Source: Lachnospiraceae bacterium A4
GTDB lineage: Bacteria > Bacillota > Clostridia > Lachnospirales > Lachnospiraceae
NCBI GenBank assembly: GCA_000403215.2
Contig: KE159527.1
Span: 444,114-508,113 of the forward strand
DNA length: 64,000 nucleotides
Reading direction: 5' to 3'
Shown piece after piece: positions 4,282 through 26,900 of this stretch. The notes under the pieces are model-generated. The model made no database searches and was not told the DNA's origin. It was given only the letters and a program-made list of their open reading frames with translations. The position numbers and the translations under genes are program-made. Numbering within the stretch: the stretch's first letter is position 1; every line of letters starts with the position of its first letter.

Positions 4282-6342
4282 TTATCTATACTCACTGATC
4301 TCATAAAAAGTAACCATCATAATCATTGTGTCCGCCCGCTTTCCAATCACCTTCACCGTGACGCGGTACCAGACATCTTGTGTCAGTTCGTATTCCATGG
4401 GGCCACAGATATCTCCTTTCACAAGCTTGGCAAACGCCTCCCCCAAAAGTTCATTCTCCGCCTGCATTCTACGATTGTGCTCATACTCGTTCACACTTTT
4501 TTCAAATAAAATCTCTGTATCATATCTGGCATTGGTCCGAAGCAGCTCGATTCTGTTATTCCTGTACTCATAGACGGCTATCGGCGTCTCTAGCAGATCA
4601 AAGAACTTGCTGATGCCCGACCGCGTATTCCACAGCTCATTGACAATAGCTGCATTCTCGTCGGTACTGCTCTTTGCTCCCATCTCCTCTTCTCTGGCTA
4701 TAAATTTCTCATAGTCCGCAACGGGCATTGGTTTGGCATAATAGTATCCCTGCGCGTATTCACAGCCAATACATTTCAGAAAATCAACCTGCTCGATTGT
4801 CTCCACACCCTCCACAATCGACGGCAGATGCAGCCATTTTGCCATGCGGATCACAGAAGTCAGCACTTTCTCGCCTTTTCCGTTAAACTCCTGATCCTGC
4901 AAAAATTTCATATCGACCTTCAGATAATCAACTTCCATATCTTTTAGAACATTGAGTGAAGAATACCCGCTGCCGAAATCGTCCATCATGATCTTAAAGC
5001 CCAGACGGTGCAGGCTGCTCATGGTTTTCATAATCAAATCCTGATCTTCCATAAAGGCGCTCTCCGTCAGTTCCAAATTCAGCAACTCCGCTGGAATCTG
5101 AAACTCCGTGAGCAGTTTCTTGAAAATCTTTACCAGATGTGGGTTGTAGATATTCACACGGGATACATTGACTGAAATTGGATTTGGTGTTTTCCCCTCA
5201 TCTAACCACTTGCGCAGCAACATACAGACATGGCGCCACATATACTGGTCCAGCCTGCCAATAATCCCATTGCGCTCATAGACAGGGATAAACTCCCCCG
5301 GCGACATCATTCCCTTTTCGGGATGGTTCCAGCGCACCAGCGCCTCCGCCCCGTAGGAACGGTCTGTCACCAGATTCATCTTGGGCTGCAAATACACCTT
5401 AAACTGTTCCTCATCAATCGCGCGGTTTACCTCATTGATGATAAACTGCTCTTGGCGCATATTTTCTATCATTTTCTCATCATAGTACGCGAGGCTCTGG
5501 ACAAATTTTCCCTTGCAGCTCTTTGCCGCCAAAGATGCCCTGTCATACATTTCGGGCACATCTGCTGTATCATCTTTGATGATATATACACCGCATGAGA
5601 GCTTGATATTATAGTCTTTATTTACTTTTCTTAGATTGATTTGGAGTGCTTTCACCAGCAGCTCCACATTTTCTTCCTGATACGGCATACACACTGCAAA
5701 GATATCATTTTCCACGCGCCCGTAGACAAACTTGTCAAAAACTGTCGAAATCTTTTTTAGCTCAAGCGCGACGCTCTTTAATACTTTATCGCCTTCCTTG
5801 ATGCCATAAAAATTATTAATCATCTTAAAGCGGTCAATGTCAAAACGCGCAAATGCAAACGTCTCCTCTGTCTCCTCCATTAACATACTGCGCACGGCTC
5901 TGTAAAATTTAAACTTCGTATAAATTCCTGTGACTGCATCCCGCTCTGCCATGATCATACGGCTCTTGTCTATCGCATTCTTGATGCGAAACCGCAAAAG
6001 TACAGGATTGTATGGTTTCATCACAAAGTCCCAGACTCCCGCCTCCAGACATTTCTGTTCTGAATGCCAGTCCTCATTGGAGGTCGCGACAATCACCGGA
6101 ATATTATCATACTCCCGATGCCTGCGAAATTCATTCATAAACTGAAAACCGTCCATAACTGGCATGATTAAATCCAGCACAATCACTGCCACCTGCTCAA
6201 TATGCTCGCCAAGCAGTTCAAGCGCTTCCTGTCCATTTGACGCTTCGAGTACTTCATAATCATCTTTGATGACATCTCGGAGTCTCTGTTTCACAACCTC
6301 CTCGTCATCAACTAACAATATTGTATTTTTGCTATACCTCAA
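4282..6342 (-). CDS. Response regulator with degenerate GGDEF, EAL phosphodiesterase and C-terminal PAS-like domain
   Basis: 686 residues from a TTG at 6342, which has AAAGGAG eight bases upstream; an in-frame GTG at 6402 has no ribosome site. The receiver domain (about residues 7-120) has the DD pair and phosphoacceptor Asp57 in VIVLDLIMPVMDG. A GGDEF domain follows (about 140-300) with an intact DIDRFKMIN segment, but its signature reads ENDIF, so cyclase activity is unlikely. The EAL domain (about 315-560) keeps EALVRW, the Asn of NVSR, LELTES, DDFGSGYSS, DYLKVD, EGVET and QGYYYAKPM, so c-di-GMP hydrolysis is expected. The last 120 residues look PAS-like. It probably lowers c-di-GMP on phosphorylation, with the GGDEF remnant as a regulatory module. 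The partner kinase is not adjacent. Confidence 0.88.
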   Translation of the reverse strand: MRYSKNTILLVDDEEVVKQRLRDVIKDDYEVLEASNGQEALELLGEHIEQVAVIVLDLIMPVMDGFQFMNEFRRHREYDNIPVIVATSNEDWHSEQKCLEAGVWDFVMKPYNPVLLRFRIKNAIDKSRMIMAERDAVTGIYTKFKFYRAVRSMLMEETEETFAFARFDIDRFKMINNFYGIKEGDKVLKSVALELKKISTVFDKFVYGRVENDIFAVCMPYQEENVELLVKALQINLRKVNKDYNIKLSCGVYIIKDDTADVPEMYDRASLAAKSCKGKFVQSLAYYDEKMIENMRQEQFIINEVNRAIDEEQFKVYLQPKMNLVTDRSYGAEALVRWNHPEKGMMSPGEFIPVYERNGIIGRLDQYMWRHVCMLLRKWLDEGKTPNPISVNVSRVNIYNPHLVKIFKKLLTEFQIPAELLNLELTESAFMEDQDLIMKTMSSLHRLGFKIMMDDFGSGYSSLNVLKDMEVDYLKVDMKFLQDQEFNGKGEKVLTSVIRMAKWLHLPSIVEGVETIEQVDFLKCIGCEYAQGYYYAKPMPVADYEKFIAREEEMGAKSSTDENAAIVNELWNTRSGISKFFDLLETPIAVYEYRNNRIELLRTNARYDTEILFEKSVNEYEHNRRMQAENELLGEAFAKLVKGDICGPMEYELTQDVWYRVTVKVIGKRADTMIMMVTFYEISEYR

Positions 6343-6414
6343 TGTATTCGCTCCTTTATCACATCCCAAGCCGCTTGGCGGATGTTTATGCAAATTATAC
6401 ACAACTTAATTCTA

Positions 6415-6444: not shown

Positions 6445-6550
6445 TGTATTCTAAAATATTTTGTAAAATATGTGGAAATATTTCACGGATTGTCTTATTT
6501 TGCATATAAAAATACTGCTGAAAGTGACATTTTGTTTGCATCACATTGGC

Positions 6551-6605
6551 ATATCAAAACAAAACTGGAGTAAATCTGAGTTTCATCACAGATTTACTCC
6601 AGTTT
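6551..6605 (-). terminator. Strong terminator of the subtilase gene
   Basis: A perfect 17-bp stem (6562-6578 with 6589-6605) closes a 10-base loop. On the minus strand it is followed by TTTTGTTTTG. It lies 70 bp after the stop of the protease gene. On the plus strand the following bases are also T-rich, so it may work weakly in both directions. Nothing else is seen between 6445 and 6674. Confidence 0.8.
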
Positions 6606-6674
6606 GTTTCAATACGATTGCTTTGCCAATATTAATTTGGACTCTATCAGCCTAACGTCTGTAGAAGCATGGAT

Positions 6675-9600
6675 TTATTGAATGCTTACTGAATATACGG
6701 ATTTTGATCCTTTTGTCTCAATTGGTTTAACAGATAGAATCTGACCATCTTTTGTTGCTACATATTCAATGTTTACAGTTTGTTTTTTGTTTGAACCATC
6801 TTTCAGCGTTACTGTTACCTTTACTTTTTGTACTTCCTCTGGTCGAACTTCATTCGGTTGTAGACCACCACCACCTGCTACGATATCTTGATAGGTGCGA
6901 TTTGTCGTTGCCCATTTCGGAACAAGCCAAAATGCTCCTACGTTCGGATCATTCTGGTATCCGATATCTTTTCCTCCACTAATATCAACACTGTATGAAG
7001 GTGCAAAAGCCTTCCCGCCGCCTGCATATTCGACATAAGGTTGAAAATCCAATACATCAACTCTATTTGCGTTAAACTTCGTAACCTTTGGTGTTATAAT
7101 AACTGGATAGATTGCACTTGCACCGCTACCATCCATAGCTTCCGCCTTAACAATAGCCTGAGAATACCGGCCTGACGAAATATCCGACGCAATTGCCTTC
7201 ACTACACCTTTTTTCTCATCTATCGTAATATATTTCTCACCGCCCGGCATTACGCTCCATTTAACATTCTGATTTGCCGCTTTTCCAAAATTATTACTAA
7301 CCTTTGCTGAAAGTGTGATCTTTGAACCTACAGACACGATACCTTCATTAGCATTTTTAGGCACAATTGCAATTCTTGACATCGGCACACTGACTACAAC
7401 ATTACATTTTACCTTCTTATTGCTTCCATCTGTTGCACTGCATGTTATTGTCGCCTTACCGCTGGAATGTGCCTCTACCAGTCCATCAGAATCCACAGAT
7501 GCTACTTCTGGTGCACTGCTTATGTACTCAATTGCCTTGGCATCTCCACCCGTAACTACTGGTTCTAATTTCATGCTTGCTGGTGCATCATAATTTCCAG
7601 AAGTTGTAAATAGATTAAGCGTTTTCGGCAGCTCAATCTTTGTAATAGGATTTGCTACAACCTCAAACTGAATACTTGCTGTTTGGGCAGTTTTTCCTTC
7701 TGGAACATCTTTTTCTGTCGCTGTCACAGTGTATGTACCACTTGCGCCACTCTTTACTGAGACTTTTCCGCTTGCACTGACAGTTACGTTATTTGAAGGC
7801 TCCACTGTCCAGTTTAATTTTTTACTTGTCACATTTGCAGGTGTAATAATTGCCTTAATTGTTGCACTTTTTCCGACTGCTATCTTATTCGGTCCTTTTA
7901 ATTCAATATTACTTGCCAACTGTTTCACAGTGATTGTACAGCTTCCTGCTTTTTTACTTCCGTCATTGGCAGTTGCCTTGATCGTAGCTTTGCCGGGAGC
8001 CAGCGCTGTCACCATTCCGTTTGAATCTACAATTGCTACTTTTTTGTTGTTACTGCTCCATACAACATCTGTGATTTCTCCGCCTTCTATAGAGATATTA
8101 CTATTATTTTCCCCTGTCAGACTCTGTGAATCACCTGCATAGATTGTATACTTTTTCGTTGTAAATGCAATCTTCTTGATTTTCGCTGTATCAATAATAT
8201 TTAAGGTATATTGTGCAACCTGCTCTCCTGCCTTTGCCTGAATCACACATTCTCCGTTAGATGCACTTGAACTTACAGTGACTTTACCTTTATTACTTAC
8301 TGTAACGCCGTTTCCCTGCACTACACTCCATTCAACACCACTGTATTTTGCATAAGAAGGTTCTACTACTGCACTAAGTGTCAGATTTTTTCCTTTTGCA
8401 ATCTGATTCACTGAATCAGCGGCAGTAATCGTTACTTTTGATGGCGCAGGTTCAAATTTATATTTCTGCGAAACGACCTTGCTTGCCTTTCCACTCATAC
8501 GGTTTACTGCGATAACATTCAGTGTAACCTGTTTTGCACCGCCTACTTTCGCCTTACCGTCAACAAGCGGCTGCCCATTTGTGACTGTACCATTTTTAAA
8601 TACAGGCTTTTTGCCGTTGATAGAATAATAGATACTTGCACCATATGAACTACATGTAACAGGAATATCCACCCACGCTTCTGTATAAGTTGTAACTGTC
8701 TTATCAAACTCTGGTATTGCAGGAATCTCCTCTATAGTTTTCAATGTTATACCAAATACCTTAGGTAAATAAGTCGTACCAGAACCTACCTGCGGAGAAG
8801 AAGCCTTATTGGCACTCTTCTGCATTACGGAGAATAATGCGTCAACCCTTGCTCCTCCGCTCTTTCCATTAAGTTCTGACACTTTATCAGAACCCGATAA
8901 GATGACAGCCGCTGTACCTACTGCAACAGGACAAGCCATACTTGTACCCTGTAATGATGCATAAGACTGGTCAGAACTATTATAGGTAGAAACTATATCG
9001 ACACCGGGAAATGCCAGGTCTACTTTATTGCCGTAATTTGTAAATCCAGCCTTTGTTCCGTCCTGATTCAGTGCGGCAACAGAACATACTTTGTCATAGG
9101 AAGCAGGGTACTCATATCCATTTGTGGCTTCATTACCAGCCGCGGCAAATACTGCAACACCATTTTCATAAGCCTTCTTTATCGTATCTTCCTCAAGTTT
9201 GGTATAATATCCACTCCCCAAACTCATGTTCACAACATCCACACCGTCTGTAACAGCTCTGTTAATGGCTCTTATAATATATTCATCCTTCATATATCCT
9301 TCAGAGTCCATAACACTATACGCATAAATCTGCGCATCCGGAGCAATACCTGCACCGCCCTTGCCATTGTTGCCAACCGCAGCGGCAATACCTGCAACAT
9401 GTGTACCGTGTCCATCCGGGTCTGTTGTTACTGCTGTACCGTCTGACACCATAGACAAGTTCTGCTTTACATTATCCTTTAAGTCCTCATGTGTGCTATG
9501 TACACCTGTATCAATAATACCAATCTTGACACCGTCTCCCTTATAGCCTTCATCCCATGCGTACATATCTCCTACGTACTCATGTGCCCATTGATAATAT

Positions 9601-10487
9601 TCACTGGCTTCCTGCAATGCTGGATCATTATATTCCTCAAAGAGCGTGTAATAATAATTCGGCCATACTGCCGGAAGGTTGTAAGACCTGCTGGCCGCTG
9701 CCTTTACTGCCTGTCCTACAGTGCGCTTTTCGCCAAGCTGGATTACAGCTACACCGTCTCCAAAGCTTTTCAGTTCACCGCCAAAAGCCTCAGCAACAGC
9801 CTCAGCCTCTTCCCTGCTGTCTGCCAGATATACGACTTCACCCTTTGCATATGCATTGGTATTGCCCTCATTATCTGCAAGCGCTACGATCTCATCTGCA
9901 TGCTCCGCAAGCTTTAACTTATCTTCTACCTGTCTGGCTGAAAGCTTATAGCTGTCTGGCAATCCCGGGAATAACTCCTCTGTTGCGGTCTCCTCCTCTG
10001 TCGTAGTCTCCTCTTCTATCGTTAAATCTTCCTCTGTTGTTGTCGTCTCCTCTGTCTGTTCTGCGGTTATCCCTTCTCCTAAATCTGTCTCGCTTGAAGT
10101 CTCTTCTACAATCGTGGTCTCGGTCTCGGATAATTCGCTTGTCTGCTGTTCTTCTGACGCTGATGTGCTCTCTGTTCTATTTTCTGTGGAGGCTTCCTCT
10201 GTCACTGCTGTTGTCTCGGTTACATTTTCTGCGGAGGCTTCTTCTGTCGCTATTGTTGTCTCTGTTGCATTCTCTGCGGATACTTCTGCTGTCTCCACGG
10301 TTGTTTCCGCTGCGCTCTCTGCGTCTGGCTGAGGCTCTTCATTGGTCTCCTCAACACTTGTTTCTGTCTCAAGCTCTGCCACAACACCTTCACTGTTTGA
10401 TTCCGCCAGAACTGTCATTCCTGTCGTATTAAAAAGCATTGTTGCCGCTAAGATGGCAGAAAAAATTCTTGCCTTTTTCAATTTCAT
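6675..10487 (-). CDS. Secreted subtilisin-family (S8) serine protease with bacterial Ig-like repeats
   Basis: 1270 residues from the ATG at 10487 (AGGAG nine bases upstream). Residues 1-29 are a signal peptide ending VLAES. Residues 30-178 are a Glu/Thr-rich low-complexity stalk that includes three tandem 15-residue repeats (68-112). An I9-like propeptide follows, with DGVAV near residue 245. The S8 catalytic domain has Asp326 (GIIDTGVHSTHED), His363 (GHGTHVAG), the oxyanion Asn in AAAGNEATNG and Ser516 (GTSMACP). The C-terminal half has a chitobiase/Fn3-like segment and several BIG2-type domains (ATIKATANDGSKK-like endings). No LPXTG or other anchor is visible, so it may be released or held non-covalently. 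It shares an operon with the propeptide-like lipoprotein upstream. The substrate is unknown. Confidence 0.9.
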   Translation of the reverse strand: MKLKKARIFSAILAATMLFNTTGMTVLAESNSEGVVAELETETSVEETNEEPQPDAESAAETTVETAEVSAENATETTIATEEASAENVTETTAVTEEASTENRTESTSASEEQQTSELSETETTIVEETSSETDLGEGITAEQTEETTTTEEDLTIEEETTTEEETATEELFPGLPDSYKLSARQVEDKLKLAEHADEIVALADNEGNTNAYAKGEVVYLADSREEAEAVAEAFGGELKSFGDGVAVIQLGEKRTVGQAVKAAASRSYNLPAVWPNYYYTLFEEYNDPALQEASEYYQWAHEYVGDMYAWDEGYKGDGVKIGIIDTGVHSTHEDLKDNVKQNLSMVSDGTAVTTDPDGHGTHVAGIAAAVGNNGKGGAGIAPDAQIYAYSVMDSEGYMKDEYIIRAINRAVTDGVDVVNMSLGSGYYTKLEEDTIKKAYENGVAVFAAAGNEATNGYEYPASYDKVCSVAALNQDGTKAGFTNYGNKVDLAFPGVDIVSTYNSSDQSYASLQGTSMACPVAVGTAAVILSGSDKVSELNGKSGGARVDALFSVMQKSANKASSPQVGSGTTYLPKVFGITLKTIEEIPAIPEFDKTVTTYTEAWVDIPVTCSSYGASIYYSINGKKPVFKNGTVTNGQPLVDGKAKVGGAKQVTLNVIAVNRMSGKASKVVSQKYKFEPAPSKVTITAADSVNQIAKGKNLTLSAVVEPSYAKYSGVEWSVVQGNGVTVSNKGKVTVSSSASNGECVIQAKAGEQVAQYTLNIIDTAKIKKIAFTTKKYTIYAGDSQSLTGENNSNISIEGGEITDVVWSSNNKKVAIVDSNGMVTALAPGKATIKATANDGSKKAGSCTITVKQLASNIELKGPNKIAVGKSATIKAIITPANVTSKKLNWTVEPSNNVTVSASGKVSVKSGASGTYTVTATEKDVPEGKTAQTASIQFEVVANPITKIELPKTLNLFTTSGNYDAPASMKLEPVVTGGDAKAIEYISSAPEVASVDSDGLVEAHSSGKATITCSATDGSNKKVKCNVVVSVPMSRIAIVPKNANEGIVSVGSKITLSAKVSNNFGKAANQNVKWSVMPGGEKYITIDEKKGVVKAIASDISSGRYSQAIVKAEAMDGSGASAIYPVIITPKVTKFNANRVDVLDFQPYVEYAGGGKAFAPSYSVDISGGKDIGYQNDPNVGAFWLVPKWATTNRTYQDIVAGGGGLQPNEVRPEEVQKVKVTVTLKDGSNKKQTVNIEYVATKDGQILSVKPIETKGSKSVYSVSIQ

Positions 10488-10536
10488 TGATAACTTCTCC
10501 TTTTTTTCCCTCAATTACCACATTGCACCAACATTA

Positions 10537-10941
10537 TTATTTACTGGTATTCATTTCAGGTGTAAATTCTTTCAGTTGATGAGAATTACTGTTTACTGTC
10601 AGTGTCGGATAGCCGTTTATATCCTCCAGTTCTTTCAGCTCATTCAAATCCTTGTCTGTTGTAAACACTGCCACACCGTCTGAAAATGATGACAACTCGA
10701 TTCCATAGAGCGCTGCAATCTTTTCTGCTTCCTCCTGATCTTCTGCCAAGGCTATCAGCTCAAGCTCTTTTGGCTTCTCCTCAGAAGAACGCTCGGTTTC
10801 ATTTTCGGTTTCGATAAACTGCGGCATCATCTGCTGAACAGAATCCATGTCCACTTTCCGCTTGCCATTACAAGACACCAGCAGACTGCCAAACAAACCT
10901 ATACATACCACCCCAAATAATAATGCACCCATTCTGCCCAA
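10537..10941 (-). CDS. Small lipoprotein resembling the propeptide of the adjacent subtilase
   Basis: 134 residues from a TTG at 10941 with GGAGG seven bases upstream; an ATG three codons later is too far from that site. The N-terminus is a signal peptide with lipobox LLVSC, so the mature protein should be lipid-anchored outside the membrane. After a Glu-rich linker, residues about 62-92 match the propeptide of the next gene: LAEDQEEAEKIAALYG here against LADSREEAEAVAEAFG there, then ELSSFSDGVAV against ELKSFGDGVAV (17 identities in 28 by eye). I9-type propeptides fold their subtilases and inhibit them. The neighbour and the match suggest a membrane-bound inhibitor or folding helper acting in trans. 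That role is inference; no catalytic domain is present. Confidence 0.8.
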   Translation of the reverse strand: MGRMGALLFGVVCIGLFGSLLVSCNGKRKVDMDSVQQMMPQFIETENETERSSEEKPKELELIALAEDQEEAEKIAALYGIELSSFSDGVAVFTTDKDLNELKELEDINGYPTLTVNSNSHQLKEFTPEMNTSK

Positions 10942-11108: not shown

Positions 11109-11136
11109 ATTATAAACTTTTTTTCAGAATTATCAA
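11109..11136 (-). promoter_or_regulatory. Candidate promoter of the lipoprotein-subtilase operon
   Basis: TTGATA (11131-11136) and TATAAT (11109-11114) on the minus strand, 16 bp apart. The roughly 160-base leader contains a small hairpin (TCATGG/CCATGA). The rest of the 10942-11230 gap is AT-rich with no gene visible. Confidence 0.5.
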
Positions 11137-11284: not shown

Positions 11285-11494
11285 CTACTCCACCGATAAC
11301 ACCTTATAATCCTGCGCCTCCACTGTCTTTCTCAGCTCCTCATCACTCACCTCAGCGCTGAGTGTCAGCACCGCGGTTCCTGCCTCGTGGCTCACCACGG
11401 CCTCGGACACCTGCTCTAGCGCTTCCAGACACTTTTTGACCCTCGCCTCACAGTGTCCGCACATCATACCTTCGATTTTCATTGTCTTTGTCAT
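11285..11494 (-). other. Possible internally initiated CopZ-like copper chaperone (69 aa)
   Basis: Within copA, an in-frame ATG at 11494 has AAGGAG eight bases upstream, a better ribosome site than that of several genes here. Starting there gives [20 protein letters not shown] and onward, a 69-residue CopZ-sized protein with a CxxC copper site. Both a fused and a free form could therefore be made. Internal initiation is inferred from sequence only. Confidence 0.4.
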
Positions 11495-13861
11495 TGTTTT
11501 CTCTCCTTCTCTTTCTATCTCTATCTCTGTTTGATTATCACGGTAAACAGTCCCTGACTGGTTACGCCGTTTTTTGTCATGGCGCGTGCTGTAGACCTCC
11601 ACCAGATTGAGCCTGAGTGCATTCGTCACCACGCAAAAGCTTGACAGACTCATCGCCGCTGCGCCAAACATTGGGTTTAGCTGCCAGCCAAAGAAAGGAA
11701 TCCACACGCCCGCTGCCAGCGGTATCCCGATGATGTTATAAAAAAATGCCCAAAAAAGATTCTCATGGATATTTTTGAGCGTCTGGCGGCTGAGTCGGAT
11801 TGCCGCCGCAACGTCCCGCAACGAGCTTTTCATCAGCACCACATCCGCCGCGTCAATGGCAATATCGGTGCCCGCGCCAATGGCAATCCCAAGGTCTGCC
11901 CGCGTCAGCGCAGGCGCATCATTGATTCCATCGCCCACCATGGCAGTCTTTCCCTTCTCCATCAGGCGCCGTATGACGCTTTCCTTTCCGTCTGGAAGTA
12001 CACCCGCTATGACCTCATTCACGCCCGCCTGCCTGCCGATTGCCTTGGCGGTATGCACGTTGTCCCCGGTCAGCATGACAACGTAAATCCCCATTCCCTG
12101 AAGCTCCTCCACTGCCTGCCTGCTGTCCTCCTTGATGACATCTGCGACAGCAATCATGCCGGCAAGTGCATCGCCGCCAAAAAATAAAGGGGTTTTTCCT
12201 TCCAAGGCAAGCTGCTGTGCCTTTTCTAACATATCCGGTGCAATCTCAAACCGCTCAGAGATAAACTTCGCATTTCCGCCGTACAGCGGCTTTCCGTTCA
12301 CCACGGCAGTCAGGCCGTTTCCGGGCAGCGCCTTGAAATCCGTCACCTCCGCAAGCGTTCCTTTCGCCGCGTCCTCCTTTTGAGCAAAATATACTTTTGC
12401 ATATTCGTTGACAGCGCGCGCGAGGGGGTGTTCACTCTTTTGCTCTAGCAAATAAGCCATTTCAAGCAGCTTCTCCTCAGAGCTTCCCTGTGCCGGAATA
12501 AGGTCTGTCACCTTGGGTTCGCCGCTGGTGATCGTACCTGTCTTGTCAAGTGCCACCACGGACACTTTTCCTGCCTCCTCTAACGACACCGCAGTCTTGA
12601 ACATAATACCGTTCTTTGCGCCCACGCCGTTTCCAACCATGATCGCTACCGGCGTGGCAAGCCCCAGCGCACACGGGCAACTGATAACCAGCACCGATAT
12701 TCCTCTTGCAAGCGCAAAACCAATCGTCTGCCCCGCTGCCAGCCATACAAGAATTGTGACAAGTGCAATGAGCATCACCGCCGGAACAAACACACCGGAC
12801 ACTTGGTCTGCCACTTTTGCGATGGGTGCCTTCGTGGCTGCCGCGTCACTCACCATCTGGATAATCTGAGACAGCGTTGTATCCTCACCGACTCTTGACG
12901 CTCTGCATTGGATAAACCCGGACTGATTGACCGTCGCCGCTGACACGCTGTCGCCAGCCTGCTTATCCACAGGAATGCTCTCACCTGTGAGCGCCGCCTC
13001 ATTTACCGCACTCGTCCCCTCGAGCACCACGCCATCGACAGGAATGCTCTCGCCCGGTCTCACCACAAAGATATCCCCCACTGCCACCTCCTCCACAGGG
13101 ACTTTGACTTCACTGCCGCCGCGCACCAGCACAGCCGTTTTGGGCGACAGGTTCATCAGTCCTCTGAGCGCGTCCGTCGTCTTTCCCTTAGAGTGTGCCT
13201 CCAGCATTTTTCCAACTGTAATCAAGGTCAGTATCATTGCCGCTGATTCGAAATAAAACTCGTGCATATACCCCATGACGGCATCTGAATCCCCGTTTAG
13301 CTGCGCATCGGTCATGGCAAACAATGCATATGTGCTGTAGACAAACGCTGCGGCAGAGCCAAGTGCGACCAGTGTATCCATGTTGGGCGCCCTGTGCCAA
13401 AGGCTCTTGAACCCGCTGATAAAAAACTTCTGGTTCATGACCATAACTGCGATTGTGAGTAATAGCTGTATCAGCCCCATCGCCACATGATTCTGTTCCA
13501 GTATGGCTGGCACTGGGAAATTCCACATCATATGGCCCATTGAAAAGTACATCAGCAGGACCAGAAACGCAATTGAATACCAAAGCCTGCGTTTTAACAC
13601 CTGCGTCTCCTGATCTCTCAAAAGCGCCTCCTCTGCGGCGTGTGTACTGCGCTGGGCGCCGCTGCCTTTGACCGCCGCGCCATATCCAGCCTCCTCGACT
13701 GCCCGTATCACTGCCTCTGCGGCTGCGGTTCCCTCCACGCCCATGGAATTTGTCAGCAGACTCACCGAACAGGCACTCACACCTGCTACCTTGGACACTG
13801 CCTTTTCCACTCTGGCGCTACAGGCGGCACAGCTCATTCCTGTCACTGTATATTGTTCCAT
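11285..13861 (-). CDS. copA: Copper-exporting P1B-type ATPase CopA with C-terminal CopZ-like domain
   Basis: 858 residues from the ATG at 13861 (AGGAGG nine bases upstream); an ATG at 13888 is also in frame. Domains in order: N-terminal heavy-metal-associated domain with GMSCAACS (Cys11, Cys14); eight membrane segments; actuator TGES motif (ALTGESIPV); metal-site CPC in [13 protein letters not shown]; phosphorylation motif DKTGT; HP locus (EHPLARA); GDGINDAP hinge; last helix with MSLSS. These are hallmarks of Cu(I) export ATPases of the plasma membrane. After a basic linker the protein continues in frame into a second complete heavy-metal domain ([14 protein letters not shown]), which in many bacteria is the separate chaperone CopZ. 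It follows csoR closely and should be induced by copper through it. Confidence 0.93.
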
Positions 13862-13892
13862 TGCGGGTTGCCTCCTATTATCATTCATGTCC

Positions 13893-14240
13893 TTATTTCA
13901 TCAGCTTCTTGAGCGTGTTGACCAGCTCATCGACGGTCTCTTCCTTTCCATTTAAAATATCCTGCGTCACGCAGGTTTTGATGTGATTTGCAAGAAGCAC
14001 TCTGTTAAAGCTGTTGAGCGCTGCGTTGACCGCCGCCACCTGCACCAATATATCTGTGCAGTAGACATCCTTCTCAACCATTCCCTTGATGCCGCGAATC
14101 TGTCCCTCAATGCGGCTCAGCCGGTTGATCATGTCCTTGTACTCTTTCTCAGAGCGTTCCTTCGTCTTTGAAGTACAATGCTCACATGCCTCATTGGTGT
14201 TCTCTAAAGTTTCTGCATTTTCATTCATTGTATGATCCAT
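13893..14240 (-). CDS. csoR: CsoR-family copper-sensing repressor
   Basis: 115 residues from the ATG at 14240 (AGGACAGG upstream). The frame continues further 5' but through the promoter and operator, so a longer product is rejected. The all-helical CsoR/RcnR fold is recognisable from [16 protein letters not shown]. The copper ligands Cys61 (VYCTDIL), His86 and Cys90 (NHIKTC) are all present, matching the Cys-His-Cys pattern of true copper sensors rather than nickel or sulfur-sensing relatives. An N-terminal extension carries CEHC. Copper binding should release it from the operator upstream. copA begins about 30 bp downstream. Confidence 0.92.
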
Positions 14241-14277
14241 AGTTTTTCCTGTCCTTTCGTAAATATACCGTTCTCTT

Positions 14278-14309
14278 ATTATACTATACCCCTGTACGGT
14301 AGATGTCAA
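14278..14309 (-). promoter_or_regulatory. csoR-copA promoter with CsoR operator
   Basis: On the minus strand TTGACA (14304-14309) precedes TAGTATAAT (-10 region about 14278-14288). Between them lies TACCGTACAGGGGTA (14287-14301), an imperfect inverted repeat resembling known CsoR boxes (TACC...GGGTA). Its position between -35 and -10 fits repression by steric block. Confidence 0.7.
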
Positions 14310-14329
14310 GAAAAAAATAATATAAATGC

Positions 14330-14350
14330 AAAAAAAGGCGGAAAGCCTCT
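14330..14350 (-). terminator. Terminator of the REC-HD-GYP gene
   Basis: On the minus strand AGAGGC TTTCC GCCTTT forms a 6-bp stem with one G-U pair, followed by a T run. It lies 38 bp after the stop at 14388 and upstream of the csoR promoter. Confidence 0.55.
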
Positions 14351-14387
14351 CAACCACTAAGACTTTACACCTTTTTTCAAACCGTCA

Positions 14388-15473
14388 TTATACCTCTCTT
14401 GATACATTCTCCATCTTTTCTCTTGCATTCTGGAAACACTGCATAAGCTTGGGTGAAAAAGTACCGCACTCACCGTTTGTAATCATCTGAAAAGCCTGCT
14501 CCTTTGTGAATGCCTTCTTATAACAGCGCTCACTGATCAGCGCGTCATAAACATCTGCCACCGATACAATCTGCGCCGCAATCGGAATCTCGTCCCCGGC
14601 AAGCTGATCTGGATATCCTCTGCCGTCAAAGCGCTCATGATGATGCCTGCATATCTTATATGCATAGTTCTTATACCGCTCGTCCCAGACACCCTCTATG
14701 TGGTCAAGCACTTCGCAGCCCTTGACCGTATGGGATTTCATGCAGTCAAACTCCTCGTCTGTGAGACGCCCCGGCTTTAATAAAATATGGTCTGGTATTG
14801 TAATCTTTCCAATATCATGCACCGCACTCGCAGACTCAATAATGCGCACCTCCTCCTCTGTAAGATTGTACTCTGGACAAGCTGCCATCAATTCCTCTGC
14901 CAAAATCTTTGTGTAAGACTTTACGCGCTTTACATGCTCTCCGCTCTCGAGATTCCTGCTCTCGACAACCTCCGCCAAGATATCTGTAATCTTTTCATTC
15001 TGCTGTCTGAGCTCATCTGCCTGTTTGCAGATCATCTCATACTGGCGCTTCAGCGTCATCGTCTGCGACTCTACCTGCTCCTCTAAGCTGTTCCGGTACG
15101 TAAACAAATCCACCATATTCCGCACGCGCCGCATCACAAGTTCATTGTCAAACGGCTTCCTGATAAAATCAGTAACGCCATAGTCAAAACATTTCCGCTC
15201 GACAGCAACCGCCTGCTCGCCGCTAATCACCAACACAGGGATATGCTTTAAATACCCCTTCTCCTCCATAATCTCCATCACCCTGTAGCCGTCCATCACA
15301 GGCATAATCAGGTCAAGCAGGACGATGCCGACTTCACTTTGATGAATCTCGAGCAGTTCGATTCCTTTCTGTCCATCTTCCGCCGTGAGAATCTCATATT
15401 CCTTCTCCAAGATTTCTGTGAGCATCTCACGGTTAAACGCCGCATCGTCAATAATTAATACTTTATTTTTCAT
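14388..15473 (-). CDS. Response regulator with HD-GYP domain (c-di-GMP phosphodiesterase)
   Basis: 361 residues. The receiver domain (about 1-120) has the IIDD pair and phosphoacceptor Asp in IVLLDLIMPVMDG, and Lys in IRKPF. A coiled-coil linker (about 125-170) leads to an HD-GYP domain (about 170-350) with VHDIGKI, the downstream HHERFDGRGYP signature and SVADVYDAL. All metal-binding residues typical of active enzymes appear present. HD-GYP proteins hydrolyse c-di-GMP to pGpG or GMP. With the EAL protein at 4.3-6.3 kb this is the second receiver-linked c-di-GMP hydrolase nearby. It stands alone with an AGAGGA ribosome site and no adjacent kinase. Confidence 0.9.
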   Translation of the reverse strand: MKNKVLIIDDAAFNREMLTEILEKEYEILTAEDGQKGIELLEIHQSEVGIVLLDLIMPVMDGYRVMEIMEEKGYLKHIPVLVISGEQAVAVERKCFDYGVTDFIRKPFDNELVMRRVRNMVDLFTYRNSLEEQVESQTMTLKRQYEMICKQADELRQQNEKITDILAEVVESRNLESGEHVKRVKSYTKILAEELMAACPEYNLTEEEVRIIESASAVHDIGKITIPDHILLKPGRLTDEEFDCMKSHTVKGCEVLDHIEGVWDERYKNYAYKICRHHHERFDGRGYPDQLAGDEIPIAAQIVSVADVYDALISERCYKKAFTKEQAFQMITNGECGTFSPKLMQCFQNAREKMENVSREV

Positions 15474-19999: not shown

Positions 20000-20413
20000 T
20001 TATTCGCCCTCCATATGGTCTAGTTCATACTGTTCACTGATGTACTTCTTAATCGTTTCCTCATTTACGTTGCCTACCGTTTCACAATAGTATCCTCTTG
20101 CCCAAAAATGTCGATTGTATTTCTCGCGGTATTCTGGATGCCTGTCAAATATCATCAGTGCACTTTTTCCCTTGATTCTCCCTATCGTCTTTGATACACT
20201 TAATTTGGGCGGAATTGATACATACATATGCACATGATCAGGCAGTGTCGCCGCTTTTATGATCGTGACTTCCTCCATTTTACATACTTTACCGAGAATT
20301 TCCCCTACTTCCTTTCTCAAGCTTCCAAACATCGCTTTCTTACGATATTTTGGAATAAATACAATATGGTACGTGCAATTATACTTGCTATGTGCTAAAC
20401 TTAAATCGTCCAT
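20000..20413 (-). CDS. tnpA: IS200/IS605-family transposase TnpA (Y1 HUH)
   Basis: 137 residues, normal length for this family. The HUH metal motif is His60-Val-His62 (PDHVHMYVSIPP) and the catalytic tyrosine is probably Tyr124 (IKKYISEQY). The N-terminal HIVFIPKYRKK segment and RHFWARGYY are also typical. TnpA cuts and joins single-stranded DNA at hairpin-marked ends. The ATG at 20413 follows GGAGGTG. The gene looks intact, so the element could still move. It is unaccompanied by tnpB. Confidence 0.93.
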   Translation of the reverse strand: MDDLSLAHSKYNCTYHIVFIPKYRKKAMFGSLRKEVGEILGKVCKMEEVTIIKAATLPDHVHMYVSIPPKLSVSKTIGRIKGKSALMIFDRHPEYREKYNRHFWARGYYCETVGNVNEETIKKYISEQYELDHMEGE

Positions 20414-20933: not shown

Positions 20934-23900
20934 TTATTTAACAGTAATTTTAATATTTTGAATTATCGGCTTAGTGTTGTCAGCATCTGCTACTAATATT
21001 TGGTAAGGTATTGTATAAGTTCCTGAAGGAATTTTCATTCCATATTCAGATAGACTAATTACAATCCCCCCTGCGTTATCATATGATAACGTAAAATATT
21101 GACTATTGTTATTATTTTCCAGTTTAACCTGACTAATACTATACCGAGCGTCTATTGTTAATCTGACACTCAATTTACTATCTACACTTGCTTTATACAA
21201 TGTTCCTTTTGATAGGTTTGCTTTTACTTTAGGAAGCTTATTAACCGGCTTAATATTAACTTTAGTCACTGTCTGATAGCCATTATCAAAATATGTTGCA
21301 ATATCAATTGTATATTTTTCATTTGCCTTTAATGGTTTTCCTGAAACTGCTTTTAGCACCACTTTTTCATCTTCATCCATGTATGCATAAAAATACTCAG
21401 ATAACTCTCCAACCACTTCTGCTCCGATAATATTGGCGTCCATATTTCTCAATGTTGGTGTATAAATAGTAGCGCTATATTTTCTATCCGCAATATCAAT
21501 TTTTCCTGATGCAAACAGTTTTACAGATGCTTCTTTGCTTGTTACAGTTACTTTAATTGTTGTTTTCTTAATATCAATTATTCTGCCAGCTACTTCTAAG
21601 CTACCAGCTACTTCAATTTTATATGTTTTATCCTGTGCATTTTCCAATACTTGTATTGCCACAACACCATTTTGGTATAAAACAGTCATTGCGGAAGAAT
21701 CATATTGAAAAGTAATATTGGGTTCCAGTCCACTGTTTCCTTTAATTGCAACAGGTATTACCACTGTTGACAGATTCGCTTTGTTAATGGTTATTTTTTC
21801 TGTCTCTGCCTGCAATGCAAGTGAATCCGCATTAATCAGCTGAATTTTACCTGAAACCGTAACTGCCTGTGTCCAACACTCATCCTGAATGTCAACCCTG
21901 TATGATGTATTGGCTGTTCCATTATAGTTCAGCCTAAGTTTTCCATTAAATACAGATATACCAACATTTTCGGTTTTAGATTCTACCTTTGCATTGCTTA
22001 AATTATATGCTGTCTTACCATTGCGCACAATCGTAAGTACTTCATCCATTCCTGTATCTTTAATAAAGGAAGCAGGGTCTATTCGCAACGATGGTTTTTT
22101 ATTCAACACACTAACTTTTACTGTCATTTCAATGGGAGCAGCATATCCCTCAAATGTAATCTTTATTTTAGATTTTAATGCATCGGAATTTTTAGGCTTA
22201 TAACGTTCAATGTTATTTGCAATGTTTCTCGGTTCCAATGTGAGCAATCCTGCCTGTGTATCATAGTTCTTCACATGGAAACAGATTTCTGACGCACCAG
22301 AAGCATCCTCAATCTTCTCTATCGCATATTTTGAACTTACTTTAAATACTGCTTCTGCATCTGTATAAAAAATATTCGGTTTTACACTCTGTTTGAATGT
22401 TGCTTTAGGCTGTGTTACATTTACTGTTACTTTTAGCGTCTTTTCATAAACACCTTTGTCAGCTGAAATCTTTAAAACTACATTTTCTTCGGTTTTCTTA
22501 GAATAACCGCTTGCCTTTAGATACCAAATTCCTGACTTCTCTGTTGCTTCTAAGCCAGCTGCACCACTCACAGTTACCGCCTGAATCTGATTGCTACTTT
22601 GTGAAGTCAAACCAAGCTCTGTTCCATCACTACTATACTGAAATACTGTGAGCGCTTTTTTATCCATCACTGGCGTAAAGTCTTGTATCTTCAGTAAAAT
22701 CTCCTCCGTAAATGCACCCTTGTCTGTAGATGTTGCCGATATAACAGTAACACCCGCTTTTTTAACAGTCACCAATCCAGCAGCATCAATAACCGCTACT
22801 TTTGCATCGGAACTTGCCCACTGAACAGGTGTACTTTTTTCTACACCGCTTGCTGTTGTATTAGCAGTGAGTTGTATTTGAAATTGAGTAGTCTTGTTAA
22901 ATACCGCATAATCGGACTCTAATGCGCCATTAGAAGCAGCACAAGAAAGCGCCTTTTCTGGTTGTTGGTCAGCAAGCTGAATCACAATACTGTCTATAGA
23001 ATCCTTATCCAATATCTGTATTGCATAACTGCCTTGTACCTTTATATTATTTCCTGTTAGACAATTTTTAACAATCACCTCCGCCGTAAGCGTTGAGCCT
23101 CCTGATGTACCTCCAGTTTTAATTATTACTGGATTCACATTGTCTGCACCCTCTATGGAAATTCCATTATCCCCTTTCCATTGATAACTGATATCATATC
23201 CTTTAATAGTGTTTATTGGATACCCTGTATATTGATAACTCAGCCGATAACTGCCTGTACGCTCTACTGCAATTTTTGCTGCACCAGAAATATCCACAGT
23301 GTCTAATGCAGTAACAGCAACCGAAAGTCTAGCATTAATCGGCTGTCTGCCCTCTACATCATATTTTGCTGCAAAAGTTTGTACTGGAAGAGAATCATCT
23401 GCCTGAGGCACAGTATCAGGATATACCCAAGTCCATCCATCACCGATTGGAATATCCTTTAGGCTGGTATCTGCACCTTCTAAGAAATAATACGTCTTTT
23501 TCATGATATCTGCATTAATTTCATTCGTATTATCATTCACTATTACGCTATATTTTAACGTCTGTACAAATTCTTCTCCTGTTTTCGTATTTTTTATAAA
23601 TACTGTACCCTGCAAAGTATAAGTGCCGGGCATTGTGCCCGCTTGAATGGTTACTTCTCCTTGGTCCGCCTTTCCTTGAATCTTTAAGTTATCGTTCCCT
23701 ACCCATTGAAAAGACGCCGCATAAGTTGTATTGTCTGCCGGTTTATATCCGGTAAACTCAAACATAAATTTATATATTTCAACTTGTGACAGCTGCAACT
23801 CTGTAGCACCAGTAATCCTTGTGTTAACACTTGTTATATATACAGAAAGCGGTGTCGTAAAAAAGTCCAGTCCGTCTTTCTCATAAATTGCAGTAAATTC

Positions 23901-26900
23901 TTTTGCTGGGCGATTGGAATCTGCTGTCGGTTTCTGTGAAGGATTTGACCATCTCCATCCTTTAGGAAGTTTAATATCCGCAAGTGTCTGTTCTGCACCT
24001 TCAAGAAAATAAAGATTGCCAACTGACGCAACTAATTCCACTTTTTCTTCTTCTGTATATCCTGCCATTACTGTGACTGTACATTGCGTTGACAATTCCG
24101 TTCCTTCAAGCTTTGCTGTAATTGTGGCTGTTCCGGGGTTGTTCGCTGTCAAAGTAATATTTCTAGTTGTAGAATCACCAACGCTGACAATTTTTTCATC
24201 AGAACTTGTATAAGAGATTCGGCTGCTGCTGATCCATGCTTTTTCCGGTTCTACATTAACATTTGCAAAAATTTTGGTTCCTTGTACCGCCTTAGTATGA
24301 TCAAAGTTAAATTGAATCTTTTCTGCATCAATAGGAGCTTCTGTTACCTCTACAATAACCTTCTTAATATTACTACCTGAAATAACAGTAATAGAGGTTC
24401 TGCCGACACCAACGGCTTCAACAGTTGCAATATTGGGATCTTCCTCAGATACAGTTACATCTGCAATCGTAGTATCATCAGACTCAAAAGTCGGTGTTTC
24501 AGTACTATTAAATGCAGTGATTATTTTTGTTGATTCTTCTTCCACATTCAGTTTTAATGTCATAGAAGATGGCACTACACGAAAAGCATTTAATACATCA
24601 GTATCCAAAGAAATTTGAGTTCTTGTGTAGTTTAAAAACTGTCCTTCATTTCCAATTAAAACAAGATCATAATATCCATTTGCTCTTGGCAGCGCATCAA
24701 TAACATCTTGTGTAAAGTAAAGATTTCTACCATCAAAATCTTCCTCTGTCAAAATTCTACTGTAATAACTCTCCGTGCCATTAAATTTATATATGGTCAA
24801 TGTTGCAGGAAAAATTGTTATATCCTCTTGCCATATCCCAGAAATTCCTCTTAATACGCTATCTATATGAAGATAATTCCAACCATATTTTGAGTTATTG
24901 CTAATCCCCATATATTTGCCATATTTATTTTTGTAATACGTTGTTTTTAAATCTTTACATAATGCATCACCTTTCGTTTTATGCACCAATTTCATATAAT
25001 AATATCGATCAGCTTCTGACTTCTTTATCCCTGATATATTAAAAGAAACATAGGATGAGGATTCACTTTTATATGAACTCATTACTGTAAGCTCCTCTAT
25101 TTCATTGCCATTAATATCCGTCACCAGCACCGAATATTCGTCACTCTTACTACAGTTTGGTGTATAAAAGCTCACATGAAACGTATCATCCTGATTCCAT
25201 GATGCATAACAATAGTCATAAAGCACAAAAATATCATTTGGTATCACTTGTATCTCATATTCAGCTAATAAGCTGTTTCGATAATACAGTTCAATGGTAT
25301 AATCACCCACTTCCAGCACTGAGAAATCAAAATCCATTTGAATTGCTGTTTTATATGTATCAGAAGTATGATTCCATGTATATATATGCTGTGCATCTAA
25401 TGGACTCTCCAATAAATCACCTGTTATCTGTGCAGAAAAATCTTCTTCATTTCCTTCTACATACGTAATCTCGGAATAATAAGTATGAGATAGTCTGCCC
25501 ATTCCCTGTTGGATTAAATTATATTCTGAATTTGACCAATATCCATCATCCGTAAGACGTTTCGCTCTTTCTATCACAAGGCCCGGAATATGAAAACTAT
25601 AGGTTCTTATAGGATCTGTACCATCTGGACGCAAAACAGAAAATTGATAATATCCTCCATATAAAGTACATTCCTCTCCTTCCCATTTTGGAATTACATT
25701 ATAAATCGTATCCTCAACCTCTTCCAGTCTTACTGTATATTCCTCCTGAATATGTTCTGTGCTAAAATCCCATGGCAAATCTGTTCTAACAATTGAATAA
25801 GTATAATCCTCTATATTAGATTGCGAAGTTATACCAACTTCCAACAAACTCGACTGATTATTATATTGGCTAAAATACAATATGTTTTCAATACTGCAAT
25901 ATGTATATGAAGTAGCAGTATATAATGGATAATCCTCTTTGCCTGAAAAATATACTCTAATAGCTGATATACCACTATCCCAGCCTATTTTTCTCAGTTT
26001 GACTACATACCCATCAGAAATTGGCTTACTATCCACATACTCTGTCTGCAATGTTCTATAATCATTATTGCTTTTAATTGTATAGTTAATCCGGGATGGA
26101 TCCAGATAATCAGCACCGATTGCCAAGTATATGTATTCCCCTGTGTGATCATAACTGCTGCCTGCACTTACACTTTTAATAATAGCACTATTAATAACTT
26201 CAATTGTTCCCTCCAAAAGCTCTTCAGTATTATCCTGAAATACTAATTTTAAATCATATACACCTGCGTCCAGCTTTTGTTTATTGATATAAATGCTCGC
26301 ACTTGTCCTATAATAAACATCACTCCAGCCATAGTCTACCAAATGAGGATATTTATTGATATACGTGTTTTCCTCATTACTATCTAATGAACTGTTTTTT
26401 CCATACATTAATCCATCTTTCACAAGATATATCTCGGATACTTCTTTATCTCCATAAGTCTGTACTGATAAATATGTTTCCTGCGCAGATATATAATATA
26501 CATCTGCCCTTTTTGATGAATCACTCCGGTCCATCAAAAATGTCTGCTGCTCTGCAATTTCAAAATGAACCTCTTTTGTTACTGTCAGTGAATCAGATGT
26601 ACCTTCATACATTTCAAATTTTAATGTATGTGCTCCTGTTTCATATGGAATATCCCGATTATATAGAATCGTATAATGATATCCATCCTGCCCTGTATAA
26701 CTGCTTGATTCCATATCAATCAAAGTATTATCAATATAGGCCTTAAATACAGGTGAAAACCATCCATTATGTCCTTGAACACGAAGCACTACTTCGCTTT
26801 TTCCATTTGTTTGGAAATATTTTTCCTCTGTAACCAACTCAAATTCTTTTTGTCTCTGACCATATTCCCAACATTCACACCCTTCAGGCAATTTATCATA

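Follow-up and report, generated by a model that had tools for sequence, protein, structure and literature searches.

A predicted membrane-anchored, stand-alone propeptide-like protein encoded beside a secreted subtilase in Lachnospiraceae

Separate proteins resembling propeptides have been described as partners of subtilases in several organisms. The source passages cited here describe ORF2 of Aeromonas sobria as both a chaperone and a temporary inhibitor of the S8 protease ASP, its C-terminus interacting with the catalytic site, and place ASP–ORF2 pairs in Aeromonas and four other genera (PMC5638518); ASP is described as having no propeptide of its own (PMC9549277). In Plasmodium, the gene for SUB1-ProM adjoins subtilase genes and SUB1 carries a propeptide itself, and the same source passage names SUB1-ProM, TgMIC5, Pleurotus peptidase A inhibitor 1, yeast peptidase B inhibitor and Arabidopsis SPI-1 as stand-alone propeptide-like inhibitors (PMC6993865). 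In dentilisin of Treponema denticola, the lipoprotein PrcB is encoded first in the subtilase operon, is required and has been proposed as an anchor; the cited passages give it no homologues outside oral treponemes (PMC8167434). Here, we describe a gene pair of Lachnospiraceae bacterium A4, found in a window of 64,000 nucleotides (the whole stretch of DNA analysed; contig KE159527.1, positions 444,114 to 508,113), in which a small predicted lipoprotein with a propeptide-like domain is encoded ahead of a secreted S8 subtilase that carries a propeptide of its own. Judging from the sequences, this stand-alone protein is very probably a partner that binds the adjoining protease at the propeptide site.

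By sequence comparison, the domain of the lipoprotein is homologous to the proteases' own (cis) propeptides. BLASTP between the two window proteins gave 18 identical residues in 33 (E 3e-4, as a single comparison), the local alignment of the domain with the protease scored 89 against 66 for the best of 1000 domain shuffles, and a profile–profile alignment (hhalign) of 12 stand-alone with 15 cis domains covered 65 columns with a probability of 98.8% and E 8e-17. An earlier note on this DNA, made from the letters alone, had reported a match to the propeptide of the adjacent subtilase; the match is real, and it spans the whole propeptide domain, beyond the DGVAV core on which the note had dwelt. 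In the family databases, the lipoprotein alone matched no Pfam or NCBIfam model and NCBIfam gave nothing credible for the stand-alone proteins (best E 0.0024, for one of 14), while PDB sequence searches with the stand-alone and cis profiles found no relative (best E 0.048 and 0.19).

Given the lipoprotein and 13 relatives (14 sequences), AlphaFold2 predicted strands at residues 60–65, 82–87 and 90–95, helices at 69–79 and 99–109 and a final strand of two residues. The predicted local distance difference test score (pLDDT) was 84–95 in ten-residue blocks from 61 to 120 and low in the remainder; for the model overall, mean pLDDT was 68.6 and the predicted template-modelling score 0.46. The same strand–helix–strand–strand–helix–strand order was predicted for the cis propeptide of the subtilase, whose model together with the catalytic domain had a mean pLDDT of 81.1 and low confidence in the linker. 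The predicted fold is thus propeptide-like, and the unrelated fold that the earlier note had named as telling against its idea did not turn up. Foldseek placed two ORF2 structures of A. sobria first among its PDB matches (3wqb and 2mk4; E 0.0038 and 0.015), and VIA-align again put 3wqb_B first (Z 5.7), with the propeptides of subtilisin and PC1/3 at 4.8–4.9.

That ORF2, itself encoded beside its S8 gene, is the first, though weak, fold match favours an explanation in which the lipoprotein mainly aids the folding of the catalytic domain at the Sec exit, as an external chaperone like ORF2 for ASP, and anchoring near that exit would suit a foldase; Lif, the foldase of lipases, is membrane-anchored. 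In the source passages, ORF2 is required for active ASP and also inhibits it (PMC5638518). ASP, however, is without a propeptide, whereas the Asp/His/Ser triad and an own propeptide are kept in all 15 aligned S8 proteases, and a cis propeptide was present in each of 18 named S8 genes scanned (two of them identical to those of loci L073 and L074). A second folding template seems redundant in such proteins; because the protease still has its cis propeptide, a pure foldase role would be less needed than in ASP, and we consider this explanation rather unlikely.

The survey of related genomes that the earlier note had proposed found the pair conserved, with a co-oriented S8 gene adjoining the stand-alone gene at all 24 loci of a GTDB scan (19 Lachnospiraceae, one each of Acetatifactor, Butyrivibrio, Pseudoflavonifractor and Oscillospiraceae, and one further bacterium); eight of these loci are the same contigs as loci from the genus and family searches. 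Six of the 38 genomes of the genus carry a full-length lipoprotein, each adjoining a subtilase. In a family sample of 397 genomes, 14 matched at E <= 0.01: nine have a true stand-alone gene (10 loci, all adjoining an S8 gene), two have cis propeptides only and three gave chance-like matches. In the class-wide sample, two of 391 genomes matched, and the family sample already contained both. Of the chance-like matches, that of G142/L085 comes from the signal region of what seems to be a lipoprotein of sugar-binding type, G152/L087 was read as unrelated, and G396 matches only profile positions 1–53, that is, the signal.

The family sample was also surveyed from the protease side, scoring four candidates per genome with an S8 profile built from the paired members. 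It held 24 S8 genes at E 1e-60, and all 11 with E <= 1e-135 (nine genomes) have a partner, a result that is partly circular given the origin of the profile. Around the 13 weaker genes (E 1e-102 to 1e-61), a six-frame hmmsearch of pieces of at least 40 amino acids with models of the stand-alone and cis domains found no stand-alone domain nearby, only the proteases themselves, although in two of these loci the contig ends close to the protease; as a control, the same search recovered the stand-alone domain at 10 of 10 loci of the strong group. Some loci hold more than one protease: at L080, a single stand-alone propeptide (7909–8550, minus strand) lies between two S8 genes, and at L096 and L104 an S8 gene stands on both sides of it.

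Simple pattern and hydrophobicity rules, on which all our anchor calls rest, found a lipobox after a hydrophobic stretch in 23 of 30 stand-alone proteins and an N-terminal transmembrane-type segment in its place in five (L076, L077, L078, L080 and L088); the anchor of L079 is borderline and none is visible in L075. The constant feature thus seems to be membrane attachment rather than the lipid itself. With one or the other of these two anchors in 28 of 30 proteins, a surface tether would fit too, the domain holding mature protease at the membrane as has been proposed for PrcB with PrtP of dentilisin: in the source passages, the lipoprotein gene opens the prcB-prcA-prtP operon, and PrtP both interacts with PrcB and requires it (PMC8167434). 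A propeptide-like domain filling the cleft would, however, hold an inactive enzyme, and the window protease matches the PrtP-family model at only 88.7 bits, far below the cut-off of 300. That match is weaker than the one to mycosin and therefore reflects the common catalytic domain only, and we find a tether improbable.

That the stand-alone protein binds at the propeptide site is further suggested by agreement between the two domains. The residue in the turn between strands 2 and 3 (Asp88 in the window) is the same in the stand-alone and the cis domain at 22 of 28 loci; 7.1 matches are expected from shuffling the partners and 11.9 from shuffling within related groups, and none of 2000 shuffles reached 22 either way. 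Within the window's genus, the stand-alone and cis residues are D/D, E/E, N/N, D/D and D/D. Because the turn matches beyond the shuffled expectation, the sequences suggest that the two domains dock on the same protease surface. When independent changes of the cis residue are placed on the tree of the catalytic domains, the stand-alone residue follows in 2.6 of 3 (Tyr), 2.4 of 5 (Asp) and 1.0 of 2 (Ser) and never does the opposite. A tail motif, N (or D)-x4/5-L, follows the last strand in 21 of 28 stand-alone and 19 of 28 cis domains, its presence or absence agreeing at 26 of 28 loci (relatedness not corrected), and the stand-alone proteins of L109, L110 and L075 end one residue past its Leu; by analogy with ORF2, whose C-terminal region interacts with the catalytic site of ASP, we infer that the C-terminus of the stand-alone protein may be a product-like tail. 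The 28-locus counts leave out L039 (near copy of L038), L107 (X letters, near copy of L106), L090–L094, L098, L101 and L113 (contigs already represented), L080b (second S8 gene of its locus) and L100 (S8 partner unsure, contig end). As a separate lead only, Trp in helix 1 of the catalytic domain goes with a small or Lys turn residue (L095, L096, L097 and L076) and Tyr in the turn with Ala or Asp in helix 1 (L073, L074, L099 and L102–L104); L105, L106 and L108 have Tyr in both positions, and L111 and L112 show no clear fit.

The matching of the turns is not simply the trace of a recent copy. In a midpoint-rooted tree of 28 cis and 28 stand-alone domains, built on 74 columns only and with long branches, 26 of the 28 stand-alone domains group together (branch support 99/92); the exceptions sit on long branches, the cis domain of L079 just outside the stand-alone group and the stand-alone domains of L080 and L088 among the cis domains. 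The tree suggests that most stand-alone partners descend from one old split and form a dedicated partner, and the earlier note's copy of the propeptide, taken as a recent duplicate, does not agree with such separate clustering. Matched turns, moreover, often use different codons (five of eight in L076, for example), and recent copying or gene conversion as the sole cause is ruled out by these differences together with the clustering. Codons are equal at several matched turns (L088, L038 and L074 among them), and there short gene conversions may have taken part. Within the genus, the stand-alone domain is under purifying selection: the proportion of nonsynonymous differences (pN) is 0.06–0.18 and that of synonymous differences (pS) 0.53–0.82 in 10 pairwise comparisons of five loci.

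We propose the following mechanism. The two-gene operon would yield two products, first a stand-alone propeptide tethered to the membrane and then a secreted S8 subtilase. The domain of the former would bind the catalytic domain at the two-helix surface used by the cis propeptide, and its C-terminal tail (N-x4/5-L) would lie in the active-site cleft as a cleavage product does. Because of its predicted anchor on the outside of the membrane, and because its gene precedes that of the protease in most loci, the domain would act as a second latch. It would catch protease that has lost its own propeptide, or is still folding, near the membrane; such capture would keep the protease from cutting envelope proteins, and activity would remain with enzyme that has left this vicinity or lost its latch to degradation. 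Help with folding, of the kind described for Aeromonas ORF2, would be compatible with a latch. We lean, with some caution, towards inhibition of this kind as the main role of the lipoprotein. More tentatively, an old propeptide may have been duplicated, the cis copy folding the enzyme and the membrane-bound trans copy recapturing the mature enzyme; both copies would have tracked the same catalytic surface, so that activity would be set by distance from the producer's membrane, a form of self-protection by location. If the proposal is true, bacteria shield their own envelope from a secreted subtilase by a membrane-tethered propeptide, and a group of gut Lachnospiraceae lipoproteins that have no annotation gains a candidate function. 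The pair would also be a natural one for separating the folding help of a propeptide from its inhibition, since the same protease has one cis and one trans copy, and the matched turn residue makes specificity testable by single-residue swaps between pairs.

Several observations weigh against the latch and the binding that it presupposes. For the 14 stand-alone proteins, 14 Pfam families came up at E <= 1 and Inhibitor_I9 is not one of them, so the profile check for that family, proposed in the earlier note, came out negative. No PDB match reaches E 0.001 in Foldseek, and in VIA-align the Z scores are middling even for the best match, with unrelated ferredoxin-like folds nearly as high, between the ORF2 and the propeptide matches. 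Modelled together with its cis propeptide, the protease fails to superpose on the solved pro-subtilisin 3whi (full-length root-mean-square deviation 22, docking not reproduced), and nothing about docking can be read from this model. At five of 31 distinct loci (L079, L080, L100, L109 and L111), the nearest S8 gene is upstream, so the order of latch before protease does not hold everywhere. The window protein continues for 17 residues after Asn117, more than a product-like tail needs, and the independent turn changes are too few for significance (3, 5 and 2 pairs; p 0.25 or more). The turn residue, finally, is mismatched at six of 28 loci, as one might expect if the stand-alone domain were drifting, a functionless leftover duplicate or a protein whose role has nothing to do with the protease. 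Yet pN lies far below pS in the genus, the reading frame is open at every locus read and the S8 gene never fails to adjoin in the GTDB scan, and drift of this sort strikes us as very improbable.

The features of the pair are collected in the table. The lipoprotein gene starts with TTG, seven nucleotides after an AGGAGG, and each of the four aligned relatives from the genus has a ribosome-binding site with a TTG or GTG start at the corresponding position. The lipobox read in the earlier note is present, and Cys24 is the predicted lipidated residue. The subtilase consists of a signal peptide, a Thr/Glu-rich linker, the cis propeptide, the catalytic domain with the Asp/His/Ser triad of S8, and Big_2 repeats (Pfam: Peptidase_S8, PF00082, E 2e-49; Big_2, E 4e-32). 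Its open reading frame was listed as 6675–10514; the ATG at 10487, with its own AGGAG eight nucleotides upstream, is the likely start, 27 nucleotides later, and the intergenic gap is therefore 49 nucleotides. The GTTTATAATA of the promoter-like site is identical across all five genus loci aligned, the consensus scan of the region having found 22 such sites where 11.8 are expected; the terminator-like hairpin was not listed by a terminator scan with a loop limit of 8. Promoter-like site, gap and hairpin suggest a two-gene operon, which makes the single transcript assumed in the earlier note probable.

Table. Features of the lipoprotein–subtilase pair, in window positions
Feature	Position	Strand	Basis or remarks
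Promoter-like site TTGATA-16-TATAAT	11109..11136	minus	168 nucleotides upstream of lipoprotein gene; consensus scan 11/12
Lipoprotein gene	10537..10941	minus	134 amino acids; signal with lipobox, acidic linker, propeptide-like domain
Lipobox LVSC, residues 21–24	10870..10881	minus	Sequence; hydrophobic stretch precedes Cys
Propeptide-like domain of lipoprotein, residues 60–117	10591..10764	minus	Predicted structure
Asp88, turn between strands 2 and 3 of stand-alone domain	10678..10680	minus	Alignment column 31; equals cis propeptide residue
Secreted S8 subtilase gene	6675..10487	minus	1270 amino acids from likely ATG
Cis propeptide domain of subtilase	9633..9851	minus	Weak PF22148 Fervidolysin_NPro-like match, E 0.0086, under cut-off
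S8 catalytic domain	8877..9539	minus	Pfam PF00082; model matches subtilisins, best E 8e-25
Terminator-like hairpin 3' of subtilase gene	6550..6616	minus	-35.1 kcal/mol, z -10.0 against shuffles

The pair is bordered by genes for response regulators with GGDEF-EAL and HD domains (4282–6402 and 14388–15473, both minus), and similar-looking genes border it in L035 and L036; a link to cyclic-di-GMP is possible. Just upstream of the pair lie, by eye, genes for a copper-ATPase-like protein and a CsoR-like regulator (11285–13888 and 13893–14357, minus), the ATPase-like gene being present in the genus loci L034–L039 too. Further away, 20934–28475 (minus) encodes a secreted-looking protein of 2513 amino acids with leucine-rich and Big_2 repeats and an N-terminal Thr/Glu-rich linker resembling that of the subtilase; it is a possible surface partner or substrate of the protease. 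An IS200-like transposase is found at 20000–20413 (minus).

Compared with known systems, some of the domains are like the fervidolysin-type propeptides of PF22148, a family built on propeptides fused to proteases: one of the 14 stand-alone proteins scanned, that of L080, passes the cut-off (28.9 against 21 bits), and two cis propeptides, those of the window and of L075, match below it, whereas the window lipoprotein has no match. With ASP–ORF2 of A. sobria, the pair shares a separate gene for a propeptide-like domain beside an S8 gene; ORF2, however, is encoded downstream of ASP, whereas the partner described here appears to be membrane-anchored and the protease keeps its propeptide, and the two share no Pfam family, the N-terminal domain of ORF2 (PF18492, ORF_2_N) reaching only E 0.077 in one of 14 stand-alone proteins. 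Dentilisin is alike in having a lipoprotein gene first in a subtilase operon and, comparing by description, differs in its three genes (PrcB-PrcA-PrtP) and in the acylation of PrtP itself, as the source passages give them (PMC8167434). SUB1-ProM and its kin are likewise small proteins of propeptide fold that inhibit or regulate subtilases, but those named are all eukaryotic, and none is described in the source passages as membrane-anchored or operon-encoded (PMC6993865). The statement in the earlier note that no such system had been described holds for the exact form and not for the general one, as ASP–ORF2 (PMC5638518) and SUB1-ProM (PMC6993865) are, by the passages cited, stand-alone partners encoded beside subtilases. 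Among the matches listed from the open-licence literature, no stand-alone propeptide is membrane-anchored and none adjoins a bacterial protease with a propeptide of its own; for this reason, and as far as literature searches go, what is new in the Lachnospiraceae pair is the membrane anchoring of the partner while the protease retains its own propeptide.

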